This document shows positions 2,263 to 64,000 of a DNA stretch of 64,000 nucleotides, piece after piece. The position numbers and the translations under genes were made by a program. The DNA comes from Papaver somniferum. Taxonomy: Eukaryota; Streptophyta; Magnoliopsida; Ranunculales; Papaveraceae. The notes below the pieces were generated by a model. The model was not told the origin of the DNA. It ran no database searches and saw only the letters and a program-made list of their open reading frames with translations. The stretch covers positions 6,486,088-6,550,087 of the forward strand of contig NC_039362.1 in NCBI RefSeq assembly GCF_003573695.1, written 5' to 3'. Position 1 is the first letter of the stretch. Every line of letters starts with the position of its first letter.

Positions 2263-2298
2263 GTTTTGGTAACTAGTGTGACTATGCACATTACTCAC

Positions 2299-5010: not shown

Positions 5011-5388
5011 TCACCTCATAGAATCATAAAGTAATAGCCGAAATTTCTGTGGGTCCTCAAAACCAAATAAAGCTACCACAAATGAAAGGAATCTGCAACC
5101 TGCCAAGAGAATAAACAAATAAAGCGCACTCTTGTCTAGTTTCCTGTTGAACACAACTACATCTAGCTGTGGTTCAGGTTCAGGTTCTATAACCGGGTCC
5201 AAATAAAATATTTTCATGGGTTGGATTTCCTCGTAGCTAAGATCCGATTCAGGTAGTAGAGTTTGGCAATACTCAGGTAAAAACTTAGAAGCACATAATA
5301 ATAACCTAAATAACTGCGGATCCTTAGAGTCAATTAGGTTTGACTCACATAATTGACCATGATGAAAGTGGTGGTCATTCTTAAACAA
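5011..5388 (-). pseudogene. Detached C-terminal part of the element's ORF
   Basis: An open frame of about 125 codons without a proper ATG, on the same strand as and just downstream of the 5571-6617 ORF. It includes an acidic stretch (EPEPEPQL) and a hydrophobic segment of about 17 residues (FILLAGCRFLSFVVALF) that could span a membrane, followed by FEDPQKFRLLLYDSMR. The pattern DPQ-FRLLL occurs twice, near both ends, hinting at an internal duplication. The likeliest reading is that this is the tail of the upstream ORF, cut off by stops or frameshifts. I do not recognise a named domain. Confidence 0.4.
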
Positions 5389-41849: not shown

Positions 41850-42545
41850 CTAGGTTCAGGTAGTTCGGTTACCAAGTGTGAAGAACAGGTAACCGAACAC
41901 GGAGTTCGGTTAATAAATGTCAAGAACATATAGCCGAACACAGAGTTCGGTTTCTTTCTTCAAACACGCAGGTAGCCGAACTTTAGTAATAAGATTTACA
42001 TAGGTATGTTCGGTTAGTTCGCAAACTTCAACGCAACCAAGTTCCCAACCGAACTTCAGGTTAAAAGTAACCTAGTGTTAGAAGTTCGGTTGGTTCGCAA
42101 ACTTCTACATATTTTTCGGATCAATCGAACTGGGCTTATATATGCTTATATGCAATTAGGCAAACGTTCAGTTACTACGAAATTTATTTCTTGGCGAATT
42201 AGGTAGAGTTCGGTTACGAAGTTTCAAATGTAGAGTTTGGTTACAAAGAAAACTTAACATTTTTGCGAACGAACCGAACTTTTGGACTTCTCATTATTTT
42301 CGTAAACTAAAGTTCAGTGATATTATTTTGCGAAGGAACCGAACTTATGGACTTATCTTGTTCTAATACAAGGAGTTCGGTTAAAAGTATTTTTTGCGAA
42401 TTAACCGAACTCTGAGTTCAGTTAAGAAAAAGTTAACTCGTGATAACCGAACTTTTTGCGACGAAACCGAACGTTTTGCGATGTAACCGAACTAAAAGTT
42501 CGGCTGAGACTTGTTTTTTGCGACGTAACCGAACTTTTCTCTGAA
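41850..42545. repeat. Dense AACCGAACT / AGTTCGGTT motif field
   Basis: More than 25 copies of CCGAACT, AACCGAAC or GTTCGG occur in both orientations over 700 bp, often with TTTTGCGA or TTCGCAAAC beside them. The motif stops at the element's edge. The field is repeated at 51640-52205 and 61300-61860 in the tandem copies. The tandem-array junctions fall inside it. Confidence 0.7.
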
Positions 42546-42696
42546 AAAAGAAACCTCCATTAGACCTCTCTGCAACTTCCATTTTCAACTCATTTTGGTG
42601 ATTACTTCTCATTTATTCAACCAAAAACGAATCACGAGTAATGGGTTTGTGTGAATATCTTTGTTAATGTTTTAAATTAAGCGATATATATAGAGC

Positions 42697-42830
42697 TGAT
42701 GGTGGTGATAATCGGAGGAGGTGGTGGTGGTGGTAATCGGTAGTTGGTGGTGGTGATAATCGTAGGTGTTGGTGGTGGTAATCGGCGGTGGTGGGCGCTG
42801 GTGGTGTGAAGAGGTGGTGGTTATACATAT
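42697..42830. repeat. GGTGGTGGTGATAATCGG minisatellite, variable between copies
   Basis: Units of GGTGGTGGTGATAATCGGAGG and GGTGGTAATCGG alternate. The tract is about 135 bp here, longer at 52358-52510 and shorter and error-rich at 62005-62135. It accounts for much of the length difference between units. Confidence 0.75.
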
Positions 42831-43147
42831 ATATATAGGTGTTTATTAGGTTGGTTTTAAATTAAATTAGGTTAAAGGAAGGTTAGTCATTTGAACGCTT
42901 TAGGACACCCATTATAACTGCAGGGAAGGTGGCCTAATAAAACCATGGTCCCCTCAAAAAAACCATGGTCCCTAAAAAATCATTCTAAGATTTTGTGTCA
43001 AATGGGTTAGGCCCTAACCTTTAACCCGGCCCGCTTGTACGATTCTAAAATGGCCTTGCCACCATCCTTTAAACAGAGCCCTGCTCTTATTAGAATTCCT
43101 CGGTACTGGTTTTCTAAAGTTACTCAAACAACCATTGATGACAAAGT

Positions 43148-43163
43148 TATAATAAGTATATAT
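43148..43163 (+). promoter_or_regulatory. TATA-like box before the fusion gene
   Basis: TTATAATAAGTATATATG lies 50 to 65 bp before the proposed ATG at 43213 and is identical in all three copies. The right end of Mutator-like element A is only about 230 bp upstream of the ATG, so the promoter is either inside this short gap or supplied by the transposon end. Confidence 0.3.
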
Positions 43164-43212
43164 GTTGGCGGGACGGGAACCTTTTATAATTTTCACAAGG
43201 CAAACTCTTTAT

Positions 43213-46200
43213 ATGGCTTATGTTGCATCTGACCATCTGAACTTTCAGCAGCAGCCAACAACAAACAGGTACTACTAATCTTTGACCCGTCGCAAGCATA
43301 TCAACTATCTTCTCTGCATGTTTTTATTAGGGTTTACAGCTTTTTCTTGTTTTGTTTTGCTTTTAAACGTTAAAAAAACTTTTTAGCATATGTATATGTG
43401 TTGATAATATGGTCAAAACTCATCTAAATCTATTTTAACAAAAAGAAAAACAATTAGGTTAGAATTCTTCGAGCAAAAACTACGAGTTTGTGTTGCTGAA
43501 TATGACTTCGTATAAATGTTATTACTATTAGAGGGGCAACTCTAAATTTTTAGTTCCCCTAGTTCTAAGTCCTTCGTTTTTTCTTTTGTACTCCAGGGGA
43601 AGGGCAGCTACTAATGATAATGAACCAGCAGTGGATAGTTATTTTCTACCTGGTCGTAACCATTGTCCTAATATGGATATAGTATGGATGAGTTGTCTCA
43701 AGAAAAAGAACGAAGATCCTGACAACTATATTAAGTATTCGTGGGGAAAAACTCCAACTCCTATTATTTCCGGGTTCAATCTGTACGAGATCCATCCTCG
43801 GGAGCTATGGGATCGCATCGGAGGTATAGGTAATCCTACCATCCTTACATTTGTTTTCCCGGCCTCAAGTTTTGGTCCTTAACTACGTGCATTAATGGAA
43901 ACTGGATCTACGTATGGCTGTAGGACAAGGAGCCAAAATACTATTTTATATGCCGAGACAAATTGTTGATAGCAACGGAAATTGCAAACGACAAAGCCGT
44001 AGAGGGAATATTGGCCACTGGAGGTCTACAGGAAAGAAGAAGGTTATTAGACATTTGCTTCTAATGGACAATGCTACACTTGGTTATAGGCGCAAATTTG
44101 CCTTTCACATGGGAAATGGAACCAAAACAGAATATCTTATGTACGAGTATCAGCTTGACGATGAAGAATTTCTTAGATATATCAACGAACAGGGAAATAA
44201 AAACTCCATGACTAAGGTCGGTGTGTTTCCCTCGTACATCATAAACCCTTTTAACAACACGTACTTTCATTCCTAAATTTATTACTATATTGAAATAAAT
44301 AATGTATCTTTTTTTTTTCATTGTGAAATTAATTAGATGGACAATAAATTGGTTATATGTGAAGTGTTTAAAGCTCGTGAAGTCTTCAAGCTCCCTGAAC
44401 AAGAAATCGTCAGTTTTGCAAACTCATGCGTTAATGATGGTTATCGTTTCGAATTTGATCCCATTGCCAAAGACGTTAATCAGGAACCAGAATTCCAAAC
44501 TCTGGACGAGATATTTAAGCATGCTTGCTCTTCTTCTTCCTCTTCCTCTAAGGGTGGCAAGGCATTAGAACCGTCCAAAGATGTCATAAAAACTGATCTT
44601 TTCGTGCATCAAAAATATGGATTAGGCTGGTTATATCACAGGGAAAACTCCGATGAATTGCCTCCTTTTTGGGTAGAGAATAAACAACGAGGATCTTATA
44701 AGAATCTATTGACTAAAAAACATACAAATCAGAGGCCGGAGCCTCTGAGAGGTGGTGTTTTTGCAGATGACATGGGTTTGGGTAAGACGCTTACTTTACT
44801 CTCTCTTATTTCAACTGATTTCTGTGCACCATTAGAATCATTAAGCGACAATCTAAGAAAAGAAGAAGAAGATGATGAACTGACATTGTCTCTTTCTACT
44901 AAGAAACGGAAATATAGTAGAGAAATTGTGGATTCTTCACATACTAAGAAAGTTCAGAAAATTGTTGATTTCAACGACTTATTTCCGGATGAGGAGGAGG
45001 ATGAAATCACCCCTAAACGGTGGTGGGTGGCTAGAAGAAAAACATTGATCATCTGCCCACAGTCACATCTTTCAGACTGGACAAAACAATTAGACCAACA
45101 CACAAAACCCGGTATCCTGAGAGCATTAACTTATGCTCCAGATTGGCGTAAACCAGGCCGAATATTAATAGTGACAACGAGAATTTTCAAAACTATGAAG
45201 TCGTTTTAACAACAGATGAAACTCTAGTGCATCAGTCTTTGGTTCCTTTCAAGGACATTGAGTGGCACCGAGTTATACTCGACGAGGCGCATCTAATCTA
45301 CACCAAGGAAAACTATCGCCGAGCTGCCTCGGCGCTTAAGTTTAGGCTCGAGTCTGTTCCGTTTCTTAAATCCAAGATTGTATGGCTAGTTACAGGGATG
45401 CCCATCTTGAACGGTTCATATATTTTGCCTTTTGCCATGGACTTGTTAAAATTCGCACCATTTTCTGATGCCAAGTATTGGCAAGTACTCGTCCAAAAGT
45501 TGCTTGATAAAGGATACAAGAACGGGATCTCCCGTTTACAGGTAATTCTTGTTACTCTTTGGTATTCTTGTTTTAATTTTATTGGATTTTGATTTTGGTG
45601 AATTTGTTGTAACAGGACTTGACATCAAACATATGTCTGCGAAGATTAAAAGAAGATGGCAAGGTTAAATTAATGCCCAAAACTGTAGAAACATGTTTTG
45701 TGGATTTCTCTGATGAAGAACGAGAGGAATATGCCCAAGTGGAAGCAGATTCCCAGAATGTGATTCGGAATTACATGAATCACGGCCGTATAGTGGGTAA
45801 CCATGCAAGTATGCTTGGCATCATTCAACGGCTTCGTCAACTCTGTAATCATTCTGCCTCATGTCCTACAGAAACTCTTCCGGCCTACACTATTGAAGGT
45901 AACAACTAGTTCAATTCAACCACATTTACAAGTTTCAGCATTATTCATTATTTGATAAGTTGGAAGCTTGCAATGGTGCAGATGTAACCAGGAACCCAAA
46001 ATTGCTGCAGAAAATGGTGTCAACTCTACAAGATGAAGACTGCTTTGACTGCCCGATTTGCATTTCTCCTCTATGCAACGCGACCATCACTTCATGCGCT
46101 CATGTCTTTTGCGAAAAATGTATCTTGAAATACCTGCTCACTAAGCAAAAGAAGAAGAAAACTCCTTGTTGTCCTATGTGCCGTCACCCTCTTTCTAAAA

Positions 46201-46811
46201 CAGACCTCTTCTCAGGATCACCAGAAAACCATAATGGTTTTGCAATCTCAACCTCTGGTGGAAGTGGTACTACTATCTACTCCTCCAAAGTGTCGGCACT
46301 GTTAAATTTGTTGGTGGCCTCCAAGAATGAAAATATGTCGACAAAGTCTGTGGTGTTCTCACAATTCAGAAAGATGTTGATCTTGCTAGAAGAGCCACTG
46401 AAGGCTGCTGGTTTTGAAGTAGTGAGATTGGACGATCACATGAAGAGTACCAAAAAGAGGAATAAGCTGGTAGAAGAGTTTGAAAACATGAATTCGGAAA
46501 ATTCGCACATTGTTCTTCTGGCAGATCATAAAGCTTCCAATACGTGCATGAATCTGACATTCGCAACAAGGGCATACCTGTTGGAGCCATGGTGTAACCC
46601 GATTATTGAAGATCAAGCAATAAATCGGCTACATCGGATTGGACGGCAACAAGAAATAAAGATTACAAGGCTAATTACTAAAAATAGCATCGAGGAGAGG
46701 ATAATGCAATTGCATGAGTGGAAGAAGAATTTTAGAAGTGAAAGTTCTGCTGAGAATATGGATAAAAGGCAAATCCACCGAGAAGAATTTCGCATTCTGA
46801 TGGCATTGTGA
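43213..46811 (+). CDS. NAC domain fused to SMARCA3/HLTF-like SNF2-RING protein (copy 1)
   Basis: Exons 43213-43268, 43597-43823, 43924-44216, 44337-45541, 45616-45898 and 45960-46811 have GT-AG junctions in matching phase and predict 971 residues. NAC (35-206): LKKK, NLYEIHPRELWD, KILFYMPRQ, GNIGHWRSTGKKKVI, KTEYLMYEYQL, DNKLVICEVFK. SNF2 lobe 1: LFVHQKYGLGWLYHRENSDE, DDMGLGKT (336-343), DEAH (508-511). RING C3HC4 (719-762): CPIC, CAHVFCEKC, CPMC. Lobe 2: VVFSQFRKML, HRIGR. A RING between helicase lobes defines the Rad5/HLTF/SMARCA3 group, DNA-damage-tolerance ATPases with ubiquitin-ligase activity. Their usual N-terminal HIRAN domain is absent. NAC subdomain E and the SNF2 start share exon 4, so the fusion is not a splice artefact. 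Two one-base frame breaks exist (near 45165, missing A; near 45880, extra C). Copy 2 is intact at both sites. Confidence 0.8.
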
Positions 46812-47604
46812 ATCTTGTCCTGTATGTGGATGTTGGGGTCTGTGATTGCTATTGTATCTTATATCAATGAATATCCTATTTGTATCTTTAGAAACTGCGT
46901 GTGATGCTTATATCACACGCGGTTTCGGGATTACTTTCATCTTGGATCCAAGCTGCACGAAGCACTCACTCGGAATCCAAACTTCTGTAGCAACATTAAC
47001 GACACTTCCACAATGCATAATGTTGGATCTTGGAGATGGTTAGACCCATCCTAAAAGGGGATCTCTCCTAGCATCAAGACAGGGATGGGTGAAAGTGGGA
47101 TCCACTGTTTGTCTCACACGGTATTTATCACGGGAGATACTCCTGGTAAACCTAGCATTATTGTAGTTTCTTGCATTTCCTATAATAATTGATTGACGAC
47201 CAAACAGAGAGCGGTAACTTTATTTTTCTGTAATTCTCATCTCTTCCTCCTCTAATCTAATGCTACTTTTTTCTCATTTCACTTTATGCTTCAAAAATAA
47301 AAATCATTTTCTTTTTAAGGGTTTTGAAGAACACAATTGGGTTGTAGTAAATGTAATTTTTGTACTTGAATCTGGTGGATTCCACAATCATCATCATCCG
47401 CATTATGATTTAGATATGATGATGATGTACCCCAGCAGATTCGTTGGTCAAAAAGTTGGAAGAGTACATGCAGAAATGAAGCTCGTAAAATTCTCATTCT
47501 TTGTTCACATTTAAATCAACCATTTTTGTATTTTCTTCTTATGATTTTTGATTTGAAATCTTTTGGTTAGGGTTTATTTGGTAGGATTTTAGGGCATACG
47601 TGTT
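46812..47604. other. 3' flank of the fusion gene
   Basis: This probably includes the 3' UTR. A palindrome GCGTGTGATGCTTATATCAC followed by ACGC lies at 46888-46920 and could form a hairpin near the transcript end. Further on, 47330-47510 has protein-like codon flow (FVGQKVGRVHAEMKLVKF) but is broken in copy 2 and unrecognised. Confidence 0.3.
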
Positions 47605-48050
47605 TCTGGCTGCTGTTTTTATTTTGTTGTTTGGTGTCGAGAAAGCGTCCGACAAGGTTAACTGGAAAAATTTGTCGAAGGTGATGCAGAGAATGGGGTT
47701 TGGGTTTACTTTGAGGAATTGGATTCTATCTTGCATTTCTCATGCTCATTTCTCGATCTTTCTCAATGGATCGTCCGGTATAAAATTTAGAAGCTCTAGG
47801 GGTGTCAGACAAGGAGACCCCTTATCTCCTTTCCTCTTTACTTTGGTTTTTGCAGAATGATTGCCAAGCAGAGGAAAATTCGCTTATCAATGGGTTCAAA
47901 GTGTGCTCCAACGGTTCCATTGTTACTCTTCGTTGACGACACTCTAATCTTTATTACCGACGATGCTCAAAACATTTATACTATTCAAGCAATTCTTAAG
48001 TTTATGTTTATTAAGGACTATGTTTGTTTGACAAGACTCTAGTTATTTCA
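47605..48050 (+). pseudogene. LINE reverse-transcriptase scrap (copy 1)
   Basis: It reads ASDKVNWKNLSKVMQRMGFG, WILSCISHAHFSIFLNGS, SSRGVRQGDPLSPFLFTLVF and LLLFVDDTLIFITDDA. These are RT blocks of an L1-type LINE, with FVDD standing in for the catalytic FADD. Only about 150 codons remain, with a frame shift after LVFAE that is shared by copy 2. It was therefore dead before the tandem duplication. Confidence 0.85.
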
Positions 48051-49114
48051 ATAATTGGTGAGAAATAACTTGTTATTCTGGTTTACGGGGGATCCGTAGA
48101 TAGAGAATTAGAACACTAGAGTTGTCTTTAGGTATTTTTTCTTCCGAAGCATGTCTTTGGGTAGTTGTGTGATATCAACTTGTCAAGCTGTTATCTGCAC
48201 CTAAGTCGAGCTTCTTTTTAAGTTTTTATTGAGGCTGTTATCACTGCAAAGAGAGGAGGAATTTGAAGGAAGCTGTTCTGCCTTTCTTTCTAATCCAGAA
48301 AGATTGGCTTTTAACTATGTGTACCCCATGGTCCATGGCAAAGATACTTTCTGGCTCACTGATGGATCCCAAATCGGAAGGTAAAGATTTTATTTCCGCT
48401 CTAAAAACTGTGGAGGTTGTCAATCATATGCTTAAATTGATAAATGATAGAAAGGGTTGATCTCTATCCCGTTTTTTTATTATTATTATTATCTTAGAGG
48501 GGCAATACAAAGGTGGTTTTCGCTAGGTTGTCTTTATTCCTAAATTTTTATGATGAACCAAGTAATATCTATGTGGATCTCTATGATGATTCAAGGGAAC
48601 TGCTCTCTTTGTTGAAAGTTTAGTTTCATCACTGACTGAGATCTATATCTATGGTAATTCCAACAGTAGACAAAGGTATATGAGTGGTAGTTGTAGAGGC
48701 GCCCCAATAGGGACCAAGGTATATTTGACTCGTTTTGACCTTTCTGGACTTCCACTTTTACTTTTATTTTGGCTCCTTCACTTCCTTTGACTTGCTGTTT
48801 GTCTTGTTTTTCCAGCTCCTATCATATTCCCAGGTCTTCTTCATGTGAGGCAAAAACCGTGCAACCAGTACCTCCACAACAAAAAGCTACTGAAAACAAA
48901 CTAAATCATCAAGAGCCCCAGTTGTTGAACCTAGAATAACAGCTACTCCCGCTGCTGAACTAAGTACAACAGGTCCTCATGTGAGGCCAAATCCTGCAAC
49001 TAATCCACCTCTATCTGCACAACAAAAAACTGCTGAGCAACATACAACATTAAGTACACCAGTTGTTGAACCTTGAACAACAGCTACTCCTGCTGCTGCT
49101 GCTGAACCAAGTAT
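48051..49114. other. No supported gene; degenerate coding-like DNA
   Basis: Contains 48263-48460, an open frame with PFFLIQKDWLLTMCTPWSMA that I do not recognise, a short (ATT)n tract at 48478-48492, and a Pro/Thr/Ala-rich stretch (48840-49110) that leads into the Gly/Arg region. Confidence 0.3.
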
Positions 49115-49475
49115 TGACACTATGACAAGGAGAAGGTCTGCATTTACAAGTATGGGAGGAGGTTCATGCGGTGGTGGTGCTGCAACTACTATACTGGTGC
49201 TAGAGGGAGATGTTCAAGAGGTGGTGGTGCTGGAGCTACCATTGTTGGTGCTGAAGGAAGAGGTTGAAGCGGTGGTGGTGCTTCAGCTTTAAGTTCTAGA
49301 CGAGGATATATTCATATACCAATAACCACTGCTCCTAGAGGAAGAGGTTCAAGGAGTAGTGGTGCTGCAGCTACCTGAACTGATGCTAGAGGAAGAAATT
49401 TAAGAAGGGTTGGTTCTAAAGGAAGAGGTTCAAGGGGTAGTGGTGCTGCAACTTCAAGTGTTGTTGGAGGATAAT
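49115..49475 (+). pseudogene. Gly/Arg/Ser-rich low-complexity coding remnant (copy 1)
   Basis: With frame changes it reads TMTRRRSAFTSMGGGSCGGG, GARGRCSRGGGAGATIVGAE, APRGRGSRSSGAA and SKGRGSRGSGAATS. Repeated RGRGSRGSGA blocks like these are found at the C-termini of some plant Mutator transposases and of RNA-binding proteins. No catalytic or zinc-finger motif precedes it here, so the origin cannot be decided. It is broken by stops in both full copies. Confidence 0.4.
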
Positions 49476-50109
49476 TATGTGAGGGATGTTATCCTCTGGC
49501 ATATATCCATATATCATAAAACGTCGAAGCTTTTGGGCAATAGGTGCTTCTGATTTCTGATACATATCATGTATAATGTCTTATAAGATCATTATTCACT
49601 CATTAGATTGTTATCAAGTAGAAGAAGTATGGGAGTTTGTTCCTGCCATTGGTCTTGCGTTCCTGACACTCTGACAGATAATAAAATTTTGTCTTTTTTG
49701 TATGTATTCTTGAAATTGAGCGTTTCATAAAGGTTTTGGGGATAGAATTGAACCTGCGGAAGGTCAGGGATGTGAAGTATACTGGTGCCGACCCCAAATG
49801 CCAATTACCAAAAACAACTAAGAATCCACTGCAGTAAAATCTAAGAAACCTGTAATAATAGATCCTGGGGACCTGGGGCTAGTCCCTCCCGGCTAGGATG
49901 CGTATCGGTATCCCGTGAAACAACAAAAATACTGGTTGTGTTGGATGCCTGTAATGTGATGCGTCTTGATGGTGAACAGAATAAGTATGGGAAATGGAAA
50001 ACTTGGACATGAGTACAGAGGAAGGGAATATAGAAGAGATTTTATGGAATGCAATGGCTAAACATGCCTGCACTCACAAATGTGTGCAAGTTTGCCTGCG
50101 AAAATCTAA

Positions 50110-50753
50110 GTATGTTACAAAAGCTGGTGTTGTGGATTTGAAGGGGAAGGAAGGTGGCCTGCGATATCACAAGTGCTGATGAGCTGATACTGACTGAACT
50201 CATGTGTAATGGAATGTTCAACAGGGAGTTACTGTCGAGGAAACAATTTCTTTGTTATCGTGTTTTGTGTGGCCTAAAAAACTTCAGGATGACCAGAAAC
50301 CCAGCAGGGAAGGGCTTGATGTGCTGTTTACTGAGCTGCAAGAGACGGCAAGACCAACGCCAACACCCAGCTTGATTTCCAAGTCCCAGTTAAAATATAA
50401 TAAAAGGCTTATAAATTCCGTCAGACCCGTTATTATGGAGGTTTTGGCAAAAGAGTATGAGTTCTATAAAATAATGGAAATCACGCTGGTTTCTGAGGTT
50501 AGTTTGATCAGGGCAATTCGGAGACTAGCGATAGTTCTCAGCAGCCTGGTGGCCGCCTGGCCGGATCTGTGGGTGATACCCAACTTGAATCCAAGTTCCA
50601 AGAAGCTGTTACCAAGACTAAAAGGGATTTACAGGGTCTCTGTAACTTCCCGAAAAATGCCAAATTTTGTGAATCCTTCCTCGAGATCAGAAGAAAAGAT
50701 TCATCCAGGAAGGAATTTCTGTCAGAGTTGAAGATTCTTGTGAATTTCCCCTA
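50110..50753 (+). pseudogene. MTR4/HEN2-type RNA helicase C-terminal pseudogene (copy 1)
   Basis: Pieces in three frames read YVTKAGVVDLKGK, ACDITSADELILTELMCNGM, VEETISLLSCFVWPKKLQDD, GLDVLFTELQETAR, NSVRPVIMEVLA, FYKIMEITLVSE, SLIRAIRRL and GDTQLESKFQEAVTKTKRDL. In order they form the DSHCT domain at the C-terminus of Ski2-like DExH RNA helicases (MTR4, HEN2), which feed RNA to the nuclear exosome. The helicase core is absent. At least three frame changes break it, and the first (GGGAAGGAAGGTGGCC) is shared with copy 2, so it was already a pseudogene before duplication. Confidence 0.8.
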
Positions 50754-50899
50754 GAAAGGAACTGCAATCAAGCTAGATTGTTTAGGTTTTCAAACATCTA
50801 ACATATTAATCTCTTGCATTTAGGTTGCTTTGGTATGTTTTTCTTGATTACGTGGTTTTCCCAATTTTTGGTCCATGATAGGCGATTGCTTGATACTAA

Positions 50900-51324
50900 G
50901 AGCCTGTTTGGTACAATTTTCAAAAATAGTTTTCCACTGTTTTAAAAAACATATCCTTTTTTTCTTTGTTTTCATTTTCTAAAAATTGTATGGTAAACTG
51001 TTTTTCAAAACAAGGAAAATCAACTAAATCGGATCAGATGTAAAGATTCGTCTAAGAGAAAGTGATATTAGCCATGACTCACTTGCAGTCATTCTGCTGA
51101 TCTCTTACTTTGTTCTGAAAAGAAAAAAAGAACAAAGAAAAGAAAAAAGAAAAAACACAGAAAACGATAATTTGTTGTTTTCATTTTTTTTTGTTTTCAA
51201 AAACAGAAAACAGATAGAAAACATTTTCTGAAAATGTCCGTACCAAACGCGTTTTCTCCTGTTTTCTGTTTTCTCTGTTTTCAAAAACAGAAAACTGTTT
51301 TCGAAAACTATACCAAACATGACC
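50900..51324. mobile_element. Tourist-like MITE (copy 1)
   Basis: It starts GAGCCTGTTTGGTA and ends TACCAAACATGACC, an inverted pair with mismatches. TAA is duplicated on both sides (50897-50899, 51325-51327). The interior repeats GTTTTCTGTTTTC and its complement. The terminal sequence and the 3-bp TAA duplication are typical of Tourist-like (PIF/Harbinger) MITEs. The segment just after it (GACCTAATATTCTTC...) recurs once about 85 bp further on. Confidence 0.75.
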
Positions 51325-51454
51325 TAATATTCTTCTAAAGAAATGTCATTGTTTGAAACCAGTTGGCTTATGATTTTTCATTTTACTTTAAAATGTCTTA
51401 TTTTGACCTAATATTCTTCAAAAGAAATGTCATTGTTTGAAAATCAATCTTGTT

Positions 51455-52669
51455 AAAGGGGCGGCATGATCCATTGGAGGGGAAGTAATCTAAAAAGACA
51501 AAAAGGGTCATTACATGGTAATTCATGCCACCCCTTATCAAAAAATATATGGAAATGACCAATTAACCCTTATTATTAATAATCAAGAATAGTGATGATA
51601 ATCAAGATTAGTGTTGATAACCAAGATAATCGGGTAGCTGAACTTTAGTAATAAGATTTACAGAGGTATGTTCAGTTAGTTCGCAAACTTCAACGCAACC
51701 AAGTTCCCAACCGAACTTCAGGTTAAAAGTAACCTAGTGTTAGAATTTCGGTTGGTTCGCAAACTTCTACATATTTTGCGGATCAACCGAACTGGGCCTA
51801 TATATGCTTATATGCAATTAGGAAAACGTTCGGTTAGTACGAAATTTATTTCTTGGCGAATTAGGTAGAGTTCGGTTACGAAGTTTCAAAGGTAGAGTTT
51901 GGTTACAAAGACAACTTAACATTTTTGCGAACGAACCGAACTTTTGGACTTCTCATTATTTTCGTAAACTAAAGTTCAGTGATATTATTTTGCGAAGGAA
52001 CCGAACTTATGGACTTGTCTTGTTCTAATACAAGGAGTTCGGTTAAAAGTATTTTTTGCGAATTAACCGAACTCTGAGTACAGTTAAGAAAAAATTAATT
52101 CGTGATAACCGAACTTTTTGCGACGAAACCGAACGTTTTGCGACGTAACCGAACTAAAAGTTCGGCTGAGACCTGTTTTTTGCGACGTAACCGAACTTTT
52201 CTCTGAAAAAAGAAACCTCCATTAAACCTCTTTGCAACTTCCATTTTCAACTCATTTTGATGATTACTTCTCATTTATTCAACCAAAAACGAATCACAAG
52301 TAATGGGTTTGTGTGAATATCTTTGTTAATGTTTTAAATTAAGCTATATATATAGAGGTGGTGGTGGTTGGTGGTGGTGATAATCGGAGGAGGTGGTGGT
52401 GGTAATCGACGGTGGTGGGCGGTGGTGGTGGGAGGAAGTGGTGATAGTAATCGGTAGTTGGTGGTGGTGATAATCGGCGGTGGTGGTGGTGGTAATCGGC
52501 GGTGGTGGTTATATATATATAGGTGGTTATTAGGTTGGTTTTAAATTAAATTAGGTTAAAGGCAGGTTAGTCATTTCAACGCTTTAGGACACCCATTATA
52601 ACTATAGGGAAGGTGGCCTAATAAAGCCATGGTCCCCTCAAAAAAACCATGGTCCCTAAAAAATCATTC
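51455..52669. mobile_element. Hybrid Mutator-like element at the unit junction (copy 1/2)
   Basis: The left end TTAAAGGGGCGGCATGA with a second GGAGGGGAAG motif belongs to a relative (element B) of element A. After it, ACCCCTTATC and AT-rich text parallel element A's own left part. From 51633 the sequence is that of element A, including the CCGAAC motif field and the right end (CCATGGTCCCTAAAAAATC, ending 52669). The switch point at 51633 is the tandem-array junction. Confidence 0.55.
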
Positions 52670-52896
52670 TAAGATTTTGTGTCAAATGGGTTAGGCCCTA
52701 ACCTTTAACCCGGCCCGCTTGTACGATTCTAAAATGGCCTTGCCACCATCCTTTAAACAGAGCCCTGCTCTTATTAGAATTCCTCGGTACTGGTTTTCTA
52801 AAGTTACTCAAACAATCATTGATGACAAAGTTATAATAAGTATATATGTTGGCGGGACGGGAACCTTTTATAATTTTCACAAGGCAAACTCTTTAT

Positions 52897-55800
52897 ATGG
52901 CTTATGTTGCATCTGACCATCTGAACTTTCAGCAGCAGCCAACAACAAACAGGTACTACTAATCTTTGACCCGTCGCAAGCATATCAACTATCTTCTCTG
53001 CATGTTTTTATTAGGGTTTACAGCTTTTTCTTGTTTTGTTTTGCTTTTAAACGTTAAAAAAACTTTTTAGCCTTTCTTAGCATATGTATATGTGTTGATA
53101 ATATGGTCAAAACTCATCTAAATCTATTTTAACAAAAAGAAAAACAATTAGGTTAGAATTCTTCGAGCAAAAACTACGAGTTTGTGTTGCTGAATATGAC
53201 TTCGTATAAATGTTATTACTATTAGAGGGGCAACTCTAAATTTTTAGTTCCCCTATTTCTAAGTCCTTCGTTTTTTCTTTTGTACTCCAGGGGAAGGGCA
53301 GCTACTAATGATAATGAACCAGCAGTGGATAGTTATTTCCTACCTGGTCGTAACCATTGTCCTAATATGGATATAGTATGGATGCGTTGTCTCAAGAAAA
53401 AGAACGAAGATCCTGACAACTATATTAAGTATTCGTGGGGAAAAACTCCAACTCCTATTATTTCGGGGTTCAATCTGTACGAGATCCATCCTCGGGAGCT
53501 ATGGGATCGCATCGGAGGTATAGGTAATCCTACCATCCTTACATTTGTTTTCCCGGCCTCAAGTTTTGGTCCTTAACTACGTGCATTAATGGAAACTGGA
53601 TCTACGTATGGCTGTAGGACAAGGAGCCAAAATACTATTTTATATGCCGAGACAAATTGTTGATAGCAACGGAAATTGCAAACGACAAAGCCGTAGAGGG
53701 AATATTGGCCACTGGAGGTCTACAGGAAAGAAGAAGGTTATTAGACATTTGCTTCTAATGGACAATGCTACACTTGGTTATAGGCGCAAATTTGCCTTTC
53801 ACATGGGAAATGGAACCAAAACAGAATATCTTATGTACGAGTATCAGCTTGACGATGAAGAATTTCTTAGATATATCAACGAACAGGGAAATAAAAACTC
53901 CATGACTAAGGTCGGTGTGTTTCCCTCGTACATCATAAACCCTTTTAACAACACGTACTTTCATTCCTAAATTTATTACTATATTGAAATAAATAATGTA
54001 TCTTTTTTTTTTCATTGTGAAATTAATTAGATGGACAATAAATTGGTTATATGTGAAGTGTTTAAAGCTCGTGAAGTCTTCAAGCTCCCTGAACAAGAAA
54101 TCGTCAGTTTTGCAAACTCATGCGTTAATGATGGTTATCGTTTCGAATTTGATCCCATTGCCAAAGACGTTAATCAGGAACCAGAATTCCAAACTCTGGA
54201 CGAGATATTTAAGCATGCTTGCTCTTCTTCTTCCTCTTCCTCTAAGGGTGGCAAGGCATTAGAACCGTCCAAAGATGTCATAAAAACTGATCTTTTCGTG
54301 CATCAAAAATATGGATTAGGCTGGTTATATCACAGGGAAAACTCCGATGAATTGCCTCCTTTTTGGGTAGAGAATAAACAACGAGGATCTTATAAGAATC
54401 TATTGACTAAAAAACATACAAATCAGAGGCCGGAGCCTCTGAGAGGTGGTGTTTTTGCAGATGACATGGGTTTGGGTAAGACGCTTACTTTACTCTCTCT
54501 TATTTCAACTGATTTCTGTGCACCATTAGAATCATTAATTGATAATCTAAGAAAAGAAGAAGAAGATGATGAACTGACATTGTCTCTTTCTACTAAGAAA
54601 CGGAAATATAGTAGAGAAATTGTGGATTCTTCACATACTAAGAAAGTTCAGAAAATTGTTGATTTCAACAACTTATTTCCGGATGAGGAGGAGGATGAAA
54701 TCACCCCTAAACGGTGGTGGGTGGCTAGAAGAAAAACATTGATCATCTGCCCACAGTCACATCTTTCAGACTGGACAAAACAATTAGACCAACACACGAA
54801 ACCCGGTATCCTGAGAGCATTAACTTATGCTCCAGATTGGCGTAAACCAGGCCGAAATATTAATAGTGACAACGAGAATTTTCAAAACTATGAGTCGTTT
54901 TAACAACAGATGAAACTCTAGTGCATCAGTCTTTGGTTCCTTTCAAGGACATTGAGTGGCACCGAGTTATACTCGACGAGGCGCATCTAATCTACACCAA
55001 GGAAAACTATCGCCGAGCTGCCTCGGCGCTTAAGTTTAGGCTCGAGTCTGTTCCGTTTCTTAAATCCAAGATTGTATGGCTAGTTACAGGGATGCCCATC
55101 TTGAACGGTTCATATATTTTGCCTTTTGCCATGGACTTGTTAAAATTCGCACCATTTTCTGATGCCAAGTATTGGCAAGTACTCGTCCAAAAGTTGCTTG
55201 ATAAAGGATACAAGAACGGGATCTCCGTTTACAGGTAATTCTTGTTACTCTTTGGTATTCTTGTTTTAATTTTATTGGATTTTGATTTTGGTGAATTTGT
55301 TGTAACAGGACTTGACATCAAACATATGTCTGCGAAGATTAAAAGAAGATGGCAAGGTTAAATTAATGCCCAAAACTGTAGAAACATGTTTTGTGGATTT
55401 CTCTGATGAAGAACGAGAGGAATATGCCCAAGTGGAAGCAGATTCCCAGAATGTGATTCGGAATTACATGAATCACGGCCGTATAGTGGGTAACCATGCA
55501 AGTATGCTTGGTATCATTCAACGGCTTCGTCAACTCTGTAATCATTCTGCCTCATGTCCTACAGAAACTCTTCGGCCTACACTATTGAAGGTAACAACTA
55601 GTTCAATTCAACCACATTTACAAGTTTCAGCATTATTCATTATTTGATAAGTTGGAAGCTTGCAATGGTGCAGATGTAACCAGGAACCCAAAATTGCTGC
55701 AGAAAATGGTGTCAACTCTACAAGATGAAGACTGCTTTGACTGCCCGATTTGCATTCTCCTCTATGCAACGCGACCATCACTTCATGCGCTCATGTCTTT

Positions 55801-56501
55801 TGCGAAAAATGTATCTTGAAATACCTGCTCACTAAGCAAAAAGAAGAAGAAAACTCCTTGTTGTCCTATGTGCCGTCACCCTCTTTCTAAAACAGACCTC
55901 TTCTCAGGATCACCAGAAAACCATAATGGTTTTGCAATCTCAACCTCTGGTGGAAGTGGTACTACTATCTACTCCTCCAAAGTGTCGGCACTGTTAAATT
56001 TGTTGGTGGCCTCCAAGAATGAAAATATGTCGACAAAGTCTGTGGTGTTCTCACAATTCAGAAAGATGTTGATCTTGCTAGAAGAGCCACTGAAGGCTGC
56101 TGTTTTGAAGTAGTGAGATTGGACGATCACATGAAGAGTACCAAAAAGAGGAATAAGCTGGTAGAGAGTTTGAAAACATGAATTCGGAAAATTCGCACAT
56201 TGTTCTTCTGGCAGATCATAAAGCTTCCAATACGTGCATGAATCTGACATTCGCAACAAGGGCATACCTGTTGGAGCCATGGTGTAACCCGATTATTGAA
56301 GATCAAGCAATAAATCGGCTACATCGGATTGGACGGCAACAAGAAATAAAGATTACAAGGCTAATTACTAAAAATAGCATCGAGGAGAGGATAATGCAAT
56401 TGCATGAGTGGAAGAAGAATTTTAGAAGTGAAAGTTCTGCTGAGAATATGGATAAAAGGCAAATCCACCGAGAAGAATTTCGCATTCTGATGGCATTGTG
56501 A
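52897..56501 (+). pseudogene. NAC-SNF2-RING fusion gene, copy 2 (frame-broken)
   Basis: Same six exons: 52897-52952, 53291-53517, 53618-53910, 54031-55234, 55309-55590, 55652-56501. Exons 1 to 3 and 5 are intact. Exon 4 lacks one A near 54892 (the site disrupted in copy 1, 25 bases earlier, is intact here) and one C near 55225. Exon 6 lacks a T near 55755, gains an A near 55841, and lacks a G near 56102 and an A near 56164. The first two exon-6 changes corrupt the RING between CPIC and CPMC, and the last two break lobe 2. All are single-base changes in short runs, and none coincides with a break in copy 1. Either this copy is freshly dead or the sequence has uncorrected indel errors. Apart from these it is nearly identical to copy 1. 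Confidence 0.8.
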
Positions 56502-57309
56502 ATCTTGTCCTGTATGTGGATGTTGGGGTCTGTGATTGCTATTGTATCTTATATCAATGAATATCCTATTTGTATCTTTAGAAACTGCGTGTGATGCTTA
56601 TATCACACGCGGTTTCGGGATTACTTTCATCTTGGATCCAAGCTGCACGAAGCACTCACTCGGAATCCAAACTTCTGTAGCAACATTAACGACACTTCCA
56701 CAATGCATAATGTTGGATCTTGGAGATGGTTAGACCCATCCTAAAAGGGGATCTCTCCTAGCATCAAGACAGGGATGGGTGAAAGTGGGACCACCGTTTG
56801 TCTCACACGGTATTTATCACGGGAGATACTCCTGGTAAACCTAGCATTATTGTAGTTTCTTGCATTTCCTATAATAATTGATTGACGACCAAACAGAGAG
56901 CGGTAACTTTATTTTTCTGTAATTCTCATCTCTTCCTCCTCTAATCTAATGCTACTTTTTTCTCATTTCACTTTATGCTTCAAAAATAAAAATCATTTTC
57001 TTTTTAAGGGTTTTGAAGAACACAATTGGGTTAGTAAATGTAATTTTTGTACTTGAATCTGGTGGATTCCACAACATCATCATCCGCATTATGATTTAGA
57101 TATGATGATGATGGACCCCAGCAGATTCGTTGGTCAAAAAGTTGGAAGAGTACATGCAGAAATGAAGCTCGTAAAATTCTCATTCTTTGTTCACATTTAA
57201 ATCAACCATTTTGTATTTTCTTCTTATGATTTTGATTTGAAATCTTTTGGTTAGGGTTTATTTGGTAGGATTTTAGGGCATACGTGTTTCTGGCTGCTGT
57301 TTTTATTTT

Positions 57310-57723
57310 GTTTTGGTGTCGAGAAAGCGTCCGACAAGGTTAACTGGAAAAATTTGTCGAAGGTGATGCAGAGAATGGGGTTTGGGTTTACTTTGAGGAA
57401 TTGGATTCTATCTTGCATTTCTCATGCTCATTTCTCGATCTTTCTCAATGGATCGTCCGGTATAAAATTTAGAAGCTCTAGGGGTGTCAGACAAGGAGAC
57501 CCCTTATCTCCTTTCCTCTTTACTTTGGTTTTTGCAGAATGATTGCCAAGCAGAGGAAAATTCGCTTATCAATGGGTTCAAAGTGTGCTCCAACGGTTCC
57601 ATTGTTACTCTTCGTGACGACACTCTAATCTTTATTACCGACGATGCTCAAAACATTTATACTATTCAAGCAATTCTTAAGTTTATGTTTATTAAGGACT
57701 ATGTTTGTTTGACAAGACTCTAG
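57310..57723 (+). pseudogene. LINE reverse-transcriptase scrap (copy 2)
   Basis: Duplicate of 47605-48050. RT blocks RGVRQGDPLSPFLF and DDTLIFITDDA are present. It has additional one-base losses (CTTCGTGACGAC against CTTCGTTGACGAC in copy 1). Confidence 0.85.
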
Positions 57724-58779
57724 TTATTTCAAATTGGTGAGAAATAACTTGTTATTCTGGTTTACGGGGGATCCGTAGATAGAGAATTAGAACACTAGAG
57801 TTGTCTTTAGGTATTTTTTCTTCCGAAGCATGTCTTTGGGTAGTTGTGTGATATCAACTTGTCAAGCTGTTATCTGCACCTAAGTCGAGCTTCTTTTTAA
57901 GTTTTTATTGAGGCTGTTATCACTGCAAAGAGAGGAGGAATTTGAAGGAAGCTGTTCTGCCTTTCTTTCTAATCCAGAAAGATTGGCTTTTAACTATGTG
58001 TACCCCATGGTCCATGGCAAAGATACTTTCTGGCTCACTGATGGATCCCAAATCGGAAGGTAAAGATTTTATTTCCGCTCTAAAAACTGTGGAGGTTGTC
58101 AATCATATGCTTAAATTGATAAATGATAGAAAGGGTTGATCTCTATCCCGTTTTTTTATTATTATTATCTTAGAGGGGCAATACAAAGGTGGTTTTCGCT
58201 AGGTTGTCTTTATTCCTAAATTTTTATGATGAACCAAGTAATCTCTATGTGGATCTCTATGATGATTCAAGGGAACTGCTCTCTTTGTTGAAAGTTTAGT
58301 TTCATCACTGACTGAGATCTATATCTATGGTAATTCCAACAGTAGACAAAGGTATATGAGTGGTAGTTGTAGAGGCGCCCCAATAGGACCAAGGTATATT
58401 TGACTCGTTTTGACCTTTCTGGACTTCCACTTTTACTTTTATTTTGGCTCCTTCACTTCCTTTGACTTGCTGTTTGTCTTGTTTTTCCAGCTCCTATCAT
58501 ATTCCCAGGTCTTCTTCATGTGAGGCAAAAACCGTGCAACCAGTACCTCCACAACAAAAAGCTACTGAAAACAAACTAAATCATCAAGCCCCAGTTGTTG
58601 AACCTAGAATAACAGCTACTCCCTGAACTAAGTACAACAGGTCCTCATGTGAGGCCAAATCCTGCAACTAATCCACCTCTATCTGCACAACAAAAAACTG
58701 CTGAGCAACATACAACATTAAGTACACCAGTTGTTGAACCTTGAACAACAGCTACTCCTGCTGCTGCTGCTGAACCAAG

Positions 58780-59142
58780 TATTGACACTATGACAAGGAG
58801 AAGGTCTGCATTTACAAGTATGGGAGGAGGTTCATGCGGTGGTGGTGCTGCAACTACTATACTGGTGCTAGAGGGAGATGTTCAAGAGGTGGTGGTGCTG
58901 GAGCTACCATTGTTGGTGCTGAAGGAAGAGGTTGAAGCGGTGGTGGTGCTTCAGCTTTAAGTTCTAGACGAGGATATATTCATATACCAATACCACTGCT
59001 CCTAGAGGAAGAGGTTCAAGGAGTAGTGGTGCTGCAGCTACCTGAACTGATGCTAGAGGAAGAAATTTAAGAAGGGTTGGTTCTAAAGGAAGAGGTTCAA
59101 GGGGTAGTGGTGCTGCAACTTCAAGTGTTGTTGGAGGATAAT
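58780..59142 (+). pseudogene. Gly/Arg/Ser-rich remnant (copy 2)
   Basis: Duplicate of 49115-49475 with the same stop codons and one fewer base near 58993. Function and origin are as uncertain as for copy 1. Confidence 0.4.
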
Positions 59143-59774
59143 TATGTGAGGGATGTTATCCTCTGGCATATATCCATATATCATAAACGTCGAAGCTTTT
59201 GGGCAATAGGTGCTTCTGATTTCTGATACATATCATGTATAATGTCTTATAAGATCATTATTCACTCATTAGATTGTTATCAAGTAGAAGAAGTATGGGA
59301 GTTTGTTCCTGCCATTGGTCTTGCGTTCCTGACACTCTGACAGATAATAAAATTTTGTCTTTTTTGTATGTATTCTTGAAATTGAGCGTTTCATAAAGGT
59401 TTTGGGGATAGAATTGAACCTGCGGAAGGTCAGGGATGTGAAGTATACTGGTGTTAAATCTAAGGATGAGTATACCCCCCCCCCAATTACATCCACTAGT
59501 TAAAATCTAAGAAACCTGTAATAATAGATCCTGGGGACCTGGGGCTAGTCCCTCCCGGCTAGGATGCGTATCGGTATCCCTGTGAAACAACAAAAAACTG
59601 GTTGTGTTGGATGCCTGTAATGTGATGCGTGCGTCTGATGTGAACAGAATAAGTATGGGAAATGGAAAACTTGGACATGAGTACAGAGGAAGGGAATATA
59701 GAGATTTTATGGAATGCAATGGCTAAACATGCCTGCACTCACAAATGTGTGCAAGTTTGCCTGCGAAAATCTAA

Positions 59775-60416
59775 GTATGTTACAAAAGCTGGTGTTGTGG
59801 ATTTGAAGGGGAAGGAAGGTGGCCTGCGATATCACAAGTGCTGATGAGCTGATACTGACTGAACTCATGTGTAATGGAATGTTCAACAGGGAGTTACTGT
59901 CGAGGAAACAATTTCTTTGTTATCGTGTTTTGTGTGGCCTAAAAAACTTCAGGATGACCAGAAACCCAGCAGGGAAGGGCTTGATGTGCTGTTTACTGAG
60001 CTGCAAGAGACGGCAAGACCAACGCCAACCCCAGCTTGATTTCCAAGTCCCAGTTAAAATATAATAAAAGGCTTATAAATTCCGTCAGACCCGTTATTAT
60101 GGAGGTTTTGGCAAAAGAGTATGAGTTCTATAAAATAATGGAAATCACGCTGGTTTCTGAGGTTAGTTTGATCAGGGCAATTCGGAGACTACGATAGTTC
60201 TCAGCAGCCTGGTGGCCGCCTGGCCGGATCTGTGGGTGATACCCAACTTGAATCCAAGTTCCAAGAAGCTGTTACCAAGACTAAAAGGGATTTACAGGGT
60301 CTCTGTAACTTCCCGAAAAATGCCAAATTTTGTGAATCCTTCCTCGAGATCAGAAGAAAAGATTCATCCAGGAAGGAATTTCTGTCAGAGTTGAAGATTC
60401 TTGTGAATTTCCCCTA
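59775..60416 (+). pseudogene. MTR4/HEN2-type C-terminal pseudogene (copy 2)
   Basis: Duplicate of 50110-50753 with the same DSHCT pieces (ITSADELILTELMCNGMF, GDTQLESKFQEAVTKTKRDL) and the same first frameshift. It also has private one-base losses (AACCCCAGC against AACACCCAGC; GACTACGATAG against GACTAGCGATAG). Confidence 0.8.
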
Positions 60417-60563
60417 GAAAGGAACTGCAATCAAGCTAGATTGTTTAGGTTTTCAAACATCTAACATATTAATCTCTTGCATTTAGGTTGCTTTGGTATG
60501 TTTTTTCTTGATTACGTGGTTTTCCCAATTTTTGGTCCATGATAGGCGATTGCTTGATACTAA

Positions 60564-60987
60564 GAGCCTGTTTGGTACAATTTTCAAAAATAGTTTTCCA
60601 CTGTTTTAAAAAACATATCCTTTTTTTCTTTGTTTTCATTTTCTAAAAATTGTATGGTAAACTGTTTTCAAAACAAGGAAAATCAACTAAATCGGATCAG
60701 ATGTAAAGATTCGTCTAAGAGAAAGTGATATTAGCCATGACTCACTTGCAGTCATTCTGCTGATCTCTTACTTTGTTCTGAAAAGAAAAAAGAACAAAGA
60801 AAAGAAAAAAGAAAAAAACACAGAAAACGATAATTTGTTGTTTTCATTTTTTTTTGTTTTCAAAAACAGAAAACAGATAGAAAACATTTTCTGAAAATGT
60901 CCGTACCAAACGCGTTTTCTCCTGTTTTCTGTTTTCTCTGTTTTCAAAAACAGAAAACTGTTTTCGAAAACTATACCAAACATGACC
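60564..60987. mobile_element. Tourist-like MITE (copy 2)
   Basis: Duplicate of 50900-51324 with the same TAA flanks (60561-60563, 60988-60990). It inserted before the tandem duplication. Confidence 0.75.
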
Positions 60988-61116
60988 TAATATTCTTCTA
61001 AAGAAATGTCATTGTTTGAAACCAGTTGGCTTATGATTTTTCATTTTACTTTAAAATGTCTTATTTTGACCTAATATTCTTCAAAAGAAATGTCATTGTT
61101 TGAAAATCAATCTTGT

Positions 61117-62292
61117 TAAAGGGGCGGCATGATCCATTGGAGGGGAAGTAATCTAAAAAGACAAAAAGGGTCATTACATGGTAATTCATGCCACCCCTTA
61201 TCAAAAAATATATGGAAATGACCATTAACCCTTATTATTAATAATCAAGAATAGTGATGATAATCAAGATTAGTGTTGATAACCAAGATAATCGGGTAGC
61301 TGAACTTTAGTAATAAGATTTACAGAGGTATGTTCAGTTAGTTCGCAAACTTCAACGCAACCAAGTTCCCAACCGAACTTCAGGTTAAAAGTAACCTAGT
61401 GTTAGAAGTTCGGTTGGTTCGCAAACTTCTACATATTTTGCGGATCAACCGAACTGGGCCTATATGCTTATATGCAATTAGGAAACGTTCGTTAGTAACG
61501 AATTTATTTTCTTGGCGAATTAGGTAGAGTTTCGGTACGAAGTTTCAAAGGTAGAGTTTGGTTACAAAGACAACTTAACATTTTGCGAACGAACCGAACT
61601 TTTGGACTTCTCATTATTTTCGTAAACTAAAGTTCAGTGATATTATTTGCGAAGGAACCGAACTTTGGACTTTCTTGTTCTAATACAAGGAGTTCGTTAA
61701 AAGTATTTTTTGCGAATTAACCGAACTCTGAGTTCAGTTAAGAAAAAGTTAATTCGTGATAAACCGAACTTTTTGCGACGAAACCGAACGTTTTGCGAAC
61801 GTACCACTAAATTCGGCTGAGACTGTTTTTTGCGACGTAACCGAACTTTTCTCTGAAAAAGAAACCTCCATTAACCTCTCTGCAACTTCCATTTTCAACT
61901 CATTTTGATGATTACTTCTCATTTATTCAACCAAAAACGAATCACGAAGTAATGGTTTGTGTGAATAATATTTTGTTAATGTTTTAAATTAAGCTATATA
62001 TAGAGTGGTGGTGGTGGTGGTGATAATCGGAGGAGGTGGTGGTGGTAATCGTACGGTGGTGGTTGGGTGGTGGTTGTAGTAATCGGTAGTTGGTGTGGTG
62101 ATAATCGGCGTGGTTGTGGTGGTAAGAGGTGGTGGTTATATATATATAGGTGTTATTAGGTTGGTTTTAAATTAAATTAGGTTAAAGGAAGGTTAGTCAT
62201 TTGAACGCTTTAGGACACCCATTATAACTAGGGAAGGTGGCCTAATAAAACCATGGTCCCTCAAAAAAACCATGGTCCCTAAAAAATCATTC
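61117..62292. mobile_element. Hybrid Mutator-like element at the second junction (copy 2/3)
   Basis: Same structure as 51455-52669: element B left end, switch at 61295, element A right end. The motif field here has many small deletions relative to the other copies (for example AAACGTTCGTTAG for AAAACGTTCGGTTAG), making it the most divergent stretch of copy 3. Confidence 0.55.
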
Positions 62293-62519
62293 TAAGATTT
62301 TGTGTCAAATGGGTTAGGCCCTAACCTTTAACCCGGCCCGCTTGTACGATTCTAAAATGGCCTTGCCACCATCCTTTAAACAGAGCCCTGCTCTTATTAG
62401 AATTCCTCGGTACTGGTTTTCTAAAGTTACTCAAACAACCATTGATGACAAAGTTATAATAAGTATATATGTTGGCGGGACGGGAACCTTTTATAATTTT
62501 CACAAGGCAAACTCTTTAT

Positions 62520-64000
62520 ATGGCTTATGTTGCATCTGACCATCTGAACTTTCAGCAGCAGCCAACAAAAAACAGGTACTACTAATCTTTGACCCGTCGC
62601 AAGCATATCAACTATCTTCTCTGCATGTTTTTATTAGGGTTTACAGCTTTTCTTGTTTTGTTTTGCTTTTAAACGTTAAAAAAACTTTTTAGCTTTTTAG
62701 CATATGTATATGTGTTGATATATGGTCAAAACTCATCTAAATCTATTTTAACAAAAAAAAAAATTAGGTTAGAATTCTTCGAGCAAAAACTACGAGTTTG
62801 TGTTGCTGAATATGACTTCGTATAAATGTTATTACTATTAGAGGGGCAACTCTAAATTTTTAGTTCCCCTAGTTCTAAGTCCTTCGTTTTTTCTTTTGTA
62901 CTCCAGGGGAAGGGCAGCTACTAATGATAATGAACCAGCAGTGGATAGTTATTTCTACCTGGTCGTAACCATTGTCCTAATATGGATATAGTATGGATGT
63001 TGTCTCAAGAAAAAGAACGAAGATCCTGACAACTATATTAAGTATTCGTGGGGAAAAACTCCAACTCCTATTATTTCCGGGTTCAATCTGTACGAGATCC
63101 ATCCTGGGAGCTATGGGATCGCATCGGAGGTATAGGTAATCCTACCATCCTTACATTTGTTTTCCCGGCCTCAAGTTTTGGTCCTTAACTACGTGCATTA
63201 ATGGAAACTGGATCTACGTATGGCTGTAGGACAAGGAGCCAAAATACTATTTTATATGCCGAGACAAATTGTTGATAGCAACGGAAATTGCAAACGACAA
63301 AGCCGTAGAGGGAATATTGGCCACTGGAGGTCTACAGGAAAGAAGAAGGTTATTAGACATTTGCTTCTAATGGACAATGCTACACTTGGTTATAGGCGCA
63401 AATTTGCCTTTCACATGGGAAATGGAACCAAAACAGAATATCTTATGTACGAGTATCAGCTTGACGATGAAGAATTTCTTAGATATATCAACGAACAGGG
63501 AAATAAAAACTCCATGACTAAGGTCGGTGTGTTTCCCTCGTACATCATAAACCCTTTTAACAACACGTACTTTCATTCCTAAATTTATTACTATATTGAA
63601 ATAAATAATGTATCTTTTTTTTTTTCATTGTGAAATTAATTAGATGGACAATAAATTGGTTATATGTGAAGTGTTTAAAGCTCGTGAAGTCTTCAAGCTC
63701 CCTGAACAAGAAATCGTCAGTTTTGCAAACTCATGCGTTAATGATGGTTATCGTTTCGAATTTGATCCCATTGCCAAAGACGTTAATCAGGAACCAGAAT
63801 TCCAAACTCTGGACGAGATATTTAAGCATGCTTGCTCTCTTCTTCCTCTTCCTCTAAGGGTGGCAAGGCATTAGAACCGTCCAAAGATGTCATAAAAACT
63901 GATCTTTTCGTGCATCAAAAATATGGATTAGGCTGGTTATATCACAGGGAAAACTCCGATGAATTGCCTCCTTTTTGGGTAGAGAATAAACAACGAGGAT
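62520..64000 (+). pseudogene. NAC-SNF2-RING fusion gene, copy 3 (partial, runs off the window)
   Basis: Exons 62520-62575, 62907-63129, 63230-63522 and 63644 onward. Exon 3, carrying NAC subdomains C and D, is intact and identical to the other copies. Exon 2 is 4 bp short of the others: one T is lost near 62953, two bases are lost in GGATGTTGTC, and one C is lost in CATCCTGGGAG. One base is lost in the Ser-coding run near 63838. Exon 1 has one substitution (Asn to Lys near the exon end). The frame breaks differ again from those of copies 1 and 2. Exons 5 and 6 lie beyond the window. Confidence 0.75.

Follow-up and report, generated by a model that had tools for sequence, protein, structure and literature searches.

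The window, that is, the whole stretch of 64,000 nucleotides of Papaver somniferum DNA that was analyzed, carries a gene in which a NAC domain is joined to a SNF2 ATPase with a C3HC4 RING between its helicase lobes, and this gene is repeated in a tandem array (Table 1). A profile scan of the translated exons of the first copy, copy A, gave the order NAM, SNF2, RING, Helicase_C on the plus strand, with NAM (PF02365) at 55.2 bits against a cut-off of 27, SNF2 matched as three pieces (66.6, 43.6 and 36.8 bits), the zf-C3HC4 RING at 25.8 bits (cut-off 21) and Helicase_C at 40.1 bits. These scores bear out the preliminary description of the locus, which had placed NAC, SNF2 and RING in one gene. 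All five introns are of the GT-AG type, with junction letters identical in copies A and B; NAC exons 2 and 3 are open in both copies, have canonical splice sites and are in phase with exon 4. In the six-exon model proposed earlier, exon 1 (18 codons plus 2 bases in copy A) is without homology support and the frame of copy A is broken near 45160; exon 4, which had been ended at 45177, runs to 45541 by homology. An intron restoring the exon-4 frame was considered and rejected, as all 22 candidates listed, of 20–250 bp, would delete SNF2 residues that the Papaver bracteatum protein P0001 retains.

Table 1. Coordinates of the gene copies, their exons and the repeat units in the window.
Feature	Position	Strand	Remarks
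Tandem unit A, 9,662 bp	41971..51632	+	blastn self-comparison
Copy A exon 1	43213..43268	+	Putative start ATG; phase and GT-AG junction; homology support none
Copy A exon 2	43597..43823	+	NAC subdomains A (degenerate) and B; NAM model matches from position 25 on
Copy A exon 3	43924..44216	+	NAC subdomains C–D including WRSTGKKK; domain and homology alignment
Copy A exon 4	44337..45541	+	NAC subdomain E in frame with SNF2 lobe 1 (Walker A, DEAH)
Single-base frame break	45160..45161	+	Private to copy A (absent from B, C, D)
Copy A exon 5	45616..45898	+	End of SNF2 lobe 1
Copy A exon 6	45982..46811	+	C3HC4 RING, helicase lobe 2, stop
Tandem unit B, 9,662 bp	51633..61294	+	98.1% identical to unit A
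Copy B gene	52897..56501	+	Open in the NAC exons; further on, seven single-base indels private to this copy
Copy B exons	52897-52952, 53291-53517, 53618-53910, 54031-55234, 55309-55590, 55674-56501	+	
Tandem unit C, cut by window end	61295..64000	+	Continues for about 6.9 kb in L009; identity to unit A 97.9%
Copy C gene, start only	62520..64000	+	Exons 62520-62575, 62907-63129, 63230-63522, 63644 onward

The NAC module is recognizable over most of its length. Since the NAM model is matched only from position 25 (positions 25–122 of 122, with 1–24 unmatched), subdomain A is degenerate; where a typical NAC protein has a LPPGFRFHPTDEEL-like subdomain A, none was recognized here, and the best phmmer match begins at query residue 48. 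Subdomains B to E of the A–E reported earlier are those that stand. The DNA-contact strand, HWRSTGKKK, aligns, with conservative substitutions, to YWKATGADK/YWKATGTDK of solved NAC domains. The phmmer alignment to ANAC019 crosses the intron position into exon 4 and runs through TKMDNKLVICEVFK, which is aligned as subdomain E to TKLDDWVLCRIYK, again with conservative changes. Within it, LVICEVFK reaches a score of 24 against the E motif of NAC19. Among the other 119 SNF2 relatives listed, none of 102,401 words of eight residues attains this value; in the six-frame translation of the window, 11 of 79,197 words do, three of these 11 being LVICEVFK itself in copies A, B and C. Because the NAC alignment continues into exon 4 and this motif is so rare in the relatives, subdomain E and the SNF2 start are joined within one exon, as had been claimed.

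The first codon of exon 4 is the sole ATG ahead of Walker A in that exon, and homology to SMARCA3-like proteins starts near its residue 43. In tblastn, the HIRAN-bearing P0004 extends back over the intervening linker to its residue 113, but the idea that this linker is the tail of a HIRAN domain was rejected: a profile of 109 HIRAN-bearing relatives matches exon-4 residues 43–61 only, and these correspond to the known linker of SMARCA3. With residues 13–51 by themselves the score against that profile was 0.3 bits, compared with 5.1 for the best shuffle among the 876 of 1,000 shuffles listed. Protein searches for NAC relatives returned none at E ≤ 1e-3 among 205 candidates, and none at E ≤ 10 among 3 candidates for residues 72–207; single-sequence structure prediction of NAC exon 3 gave an unusable mean pLDDT of 38.8. 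Elsewhere on the same chromosome (G000:C5:190468157-190642753), at least nine NAM matches lie within 175 kb, several with equal scores, and this cluster is probably another NAC tandem array.

Walker A, DEAH, both motif VI arginines and all RING zinc ligands are retained, in agreement with the earlier report of Walker A, DEAH and a C3HC4 RING between the helicase lobes. The best solved match to the RING and lobe 2 is Rad5 (6l8n), with an E value of 2.8e-40. Two motifs depart from the consensus, namely motif III, which reads TGMPILN (T to M) instead of TGTPI[L/Q]N, and motif V, which reads SNTCMN, without its glycines, instead of SG[T/A]GIN. These changes suggest that ATPase function may be reduced. 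Exon 4 also contains LTLSLS, an EAR-like LxLxL stretch, at 44880-44897, and similar stretches occur in several HIRAN-less Papaver proteins; the scores remain below the Pfam cut-off of 28.9 in P0001 (16.0), P0007 (20.9) and P0008 (16.2).

The array consists of four copies, two of them entire in the window, one cut at its end and a fourth, copy D, beyond it; the next 29.9 kb of chromosome (L009–L011) completes unit C and contains copy D. The latter is more diverged than the three near-identical copies A, B and C. Its exon 4 is split by an insertion of about 5 kb (L010, about 287-5293), which has ATACT on both sides, carries 392-nt direct repeats that are 98.2% alike and fits an LTR retrotransposon; with this insertion and a 4-base loss, copy D looks truly dead. 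Just 5' of the gene lies a GGT-rich simple repeat (42695-42823) whose length differs between units A and B, and downstream of the gene there are open frames (47585-48042), repeated in units B and C, which we take to be similar to a fragment of a LINE-type reverse transcriptase. Other repeats in the window are a tandem repeat at 22777-24176 (207-bp period, 6.7 copies, 96% matches) and two direct duplications, of about 1.3 kb (2299-3772 with 7179-8479) and about 2.8 kb (32152-34941 with 37049-40427), each with pieces 88-95% alike.

As assembled, every one of the four copies has a broken frame. Their majority sequence, with two-to-two ties resolved as in copy A, has an open frame of 964 codons. 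The exons contain 18 indels among the copies, and each of these occurs in a single copy (A 1, B 7, C 5, D 5); those of copy D include one at the insertion join and one immediately after the stop, and those of copy C, of 1–2 bases, are spread over the whole gene, with three in NAC exon 2. Between copies A and B there are 9 substitutions and 8 single-base indels in the exons, and 3 substitutions and 20 single-base gaps 3' of the gene, the gap density being similar in the two regions (8 in 2,888 aligned exon bases and 20 in 4,789 downstream). Because the downstream gaps far exceed the substitutions, residual assembly error in a repeat probably fits the indels better than evolution and is their likeliest source. 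It has been reported that the opium poppy assembly was merged from 10x and PacBio assemblies (assembly description in PMC6411899). The pattern is patchy, since 28 of the 29 single-base gaps between A and B lie at or after 45160, with none in the introns, and over the 1.2 kb upstream 34 substitutions stand beside one single-base gap; sequence stretches of differing quality could be the cause.

With regard to selection, the comparison of A with B was discarded as a source of evidence for purifying selection: substitutions amount to 0.14% in introns and 0.31% in exons, so that the introns are no more diverged than the exons and the pair gives no signal of constraint. Relative to the majority, copy D shows 10 synonymous and 6 non-synonymous changes, three of the ten synonymous sites being two-to-two ties with copy B that were counted for both, and this gives P = 0.0004–0.0036 under neutrality, where 73–79% of changes are expected to be non-synonymous. 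For copies A, B and C together, the changes from the majority are 6 synonymous and 6 non-synonymous (P = 0.025–0.08). Only two of the 16 changes of copy D fall in NAC exons, and the constraint therefore speaks for the SNF2-RING part and not for the NAC part.

The earlier proposal that related species be examined for the fused exon found its answer in P. bracteatum. Protein P0001 of this species (MKX03_015943, 786 aa) is 90% identical over 80% of the query and begins exactly at that exon: its N-terminus is MDNKLVICEVFK, continuous with SNF2, and its opening stretch MDNKLVICEVFKAREVFKLPEQ leads directly into the SNF2 region. P0001 also reads through the position of the copy A frame break. As the P. 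bracteatum assembly comes from another project, according to its description in PMC9174169, the fused exon exists in two species. The annotated start of P0001 is the ATG that opens exon 4, and the protein lacks the upstream NAC exons; therefore, separate translation of a SNF2-RING protein is possible. In P0002 of P. armeniacum, the annotated start lies further downstream. The search for relatives yielded 961 proteins at E ≤ 1e-3 from the best 7,986 candidates scored, and none of the 120 listed carries PF02365 (NAM).

HIRAN was found neither in the gene pieces, by profile scan, nor in P0001, and tblastn with the HIRAN-bearing P0004 and P0005 (E <= 1e-3) found none in the window DNA; the scan did find HIRAN in both of these proteins, which served as Papaver controls. 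The window gene, P0001, P0002, P0003 (Macleaya), P0007, P0008, P0015 and P0077 form one clade with a support of 100 in both a careful tree of 24 rows, comprising the window and 23 proteins out of the 120 listed, and a quick tree of 121 rows, comprising the majority sequence and the full set of 120. In the quick tree, long branches come together within the clade (P0003, P0015 and one other). HIRAN and NAM were each found in 0 of the 6 clade proteins scanned, and the precomputed domains of P0002 are SNF2 only. P0059 and P0068, also listed and without HIRAN, are N-terminally shortened, retain HIRAN-side sequence and place outside the clade. The branch of the fusion has a length of 0.77 in the careful tree. 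Because the HIRAN-less Papaveraceae proteins form one clade and the NAC part occurs on one branch, HIRAN was most likely lost first and the NAC part gained later by an already HIRAN-less paralog, as judged from annotated proteins. The suggestion that NAC had replaced HIRAN therefore oversimplifies the order of events, HIRAN being already missing across the clade. As annotated, the other clade members appear to be further decayed: P0007 and P0008 have lost one motif VI arginine, P0015 and P0077 have DDAH, and P0002 is without the RING end and motif IV. In the annotated HIRAN-less protein of Macleaya cordata (P0003), the region of the Walker A lysine is missing.

Taken together, the locus may be read as a fusion that arose in the poppy lineage from a HIRAN-less SNF2-RING paralog and a NAC exon, and that encodes a sequence-guided chromatin regulator; we consider the chance that this whole reading is right to be about even. 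In this reading, a paralog of the HLTF/SMARCA3-like (At5g05130-type) SNF2-RING proteins lost HIRAN in Papaveraceae, and on one Papaver branch the third NAC-coding exon became continuous with the SNF2 exon. The predicted product has about 964 residues, with NAC, a linker of about 30 residues, SNF2 lobe 1, RING and lobe 2, and its gene is present in the assembly as three near-identical tandem copies and a diverged copy broken by a retrotransposon-like insertion. The NAC module would bind specific DNA sites and bring the RING ubiquitin ligase and the SNF2 ATPase there; remodeling would be altered or weakened, and the role would be that of a local transcriptional regulator and not that of HIRAN-dependent fork repair. 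The domains, the join at exon level and its presence in a second species, the array and the descent from HIRAN-less proteins are seen in the data; transcription across exons 1-4, DNA binding, activity and targets are predictions from sequence.

The frame breaks could instead be true mutations, in which case the fusion would be real in the DNA and every copy in this genome dead. The private exonic indels of A, B and C, the insertion in D and the uneven spread of the A-B gaps, nearly all at or after 45160, favor this explanation; however, gaps are about as dense in the exons as downstream, where they far outnumber substitutions, no indel is common to two copies, the majority remains open for 964 codons and the P. 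bracteatum protein, as annotated, continues past the break of copy A, and we regard this explanation as rather unlikely. It overlaps in part with another explanation, in which there are two transcription units, the NAC exons being a remnant and the working SNF2-RING protein starting from the ATG at 44337; the likelihoods attached to these readings accordingly do not sum to one. The start of P0001 exactly at that ATG, the degenerate subdomain A and the spliced start context AAG|ATGG, which we judge favorable against plant start contexts, speak for two units, but NAC exons 2-3 would hardly be expected to be open, in phase with exon 4 and, in both A and B, canonically spliced, subdomain E would be an N-terminus without purpose, and opening a gene model at an exon's first ATG may, in our judgement, be an annotation choice. 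This arrangement seems improbable to us, though slightly less so than an array of dead copies.

That NAC and SNF2 are separate genes brought together by an assembly join, with the array an artefact of false duplication, is very improbable. The copies do carry indels like those of assembly errors, but the join lies within an exon and is common to four copies, of which D has its own differences, a protein 90% identical comes from a species assembled by another project, and runs of N are absent from the 93.9 kb examined. Returning to the fusion, the most economical reading is that of a chromatin protein targeted by its NAC module and capable of acting as a ubiquitin ligase; it may be repressive, and its ATPase activity would be uncertain. 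We infer that the enzyme could be redirected to NAC-type promoters; the contact strand retains its outline, subdomain A has degenerated and ATPase motifs III and V show changes. More tentatively, and with less than an even chance, a Papaver NAC and a HIRAN-less Rad5-like enzyme would make up one polypeptide that both selects a promoter and acts on the chromatin or ubiquitin at that site, and whose gene has recently been amplified in tandem in opium poppy.

As a rule, chromatin ATPases are brought to their sites by transcription factors that are separate proteins. A natural NAC-ATPase fusion, if true, would offer a direct test of recruitment and of how a Rad5-like enzyme acts once detached from the DNA-end recognition of HIRAN. 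Its intermediates are visible, in the form of related proteins that have neither HIRAN nor NAC, a tandem array and a copy in decay. Beside STORR, as presented in PMC9174169, Papaver would then have a second gene fusion of interest.

Compared with known systems, the poppy gene shares with the At5g05130-type SMARCA3-like/HLTF/Rad5 proteins the order of SNF2 lobe 1, C3HC4 RING and lobe 2, and At5g05130 itself (P0105) is 46% identical over 72% of the query. Unlike the HLTF/Rad5 group, which has an N-terminal HIRAN, it is without HIRAN, has NAC at the N-terminus and has changed motifs III and V. The HIRAN-less Papaveraceae proteins P0003, P0007, P0008, P0015 and P0077 belong to the same clade (support 100) and all lack HIRAN, but NAM is present in none of the five, and their identity to the poppy gene is 47-51%. 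P. bracteatum P0001 is like the poppy gene in the fusion of subdomain E to SNF2 and differs in being annotated without the upstream NAC exons. Chimeric NAC proteins have the NAM domain in common with the poppy gene; at least 45 such layouts from 160 species are described in PMC7147800, including NAC followed by JmjN and JmjC, and "SNF2" and "helicase" have 0 occurrences in its main text. Among the open-license papers listed in literature searches, no title or opening of an abstract names a NAC–SNF2 protein. Since the HIRAN of the Rad5/HLTF group is absent and the subdomain A expected of NAC factors is degenerate, the predicted protein is a plain member of neither group. Both families and chimeric NAC proteins are known, and what appears to be new is the domain combination of NAC with SNF2-RING.
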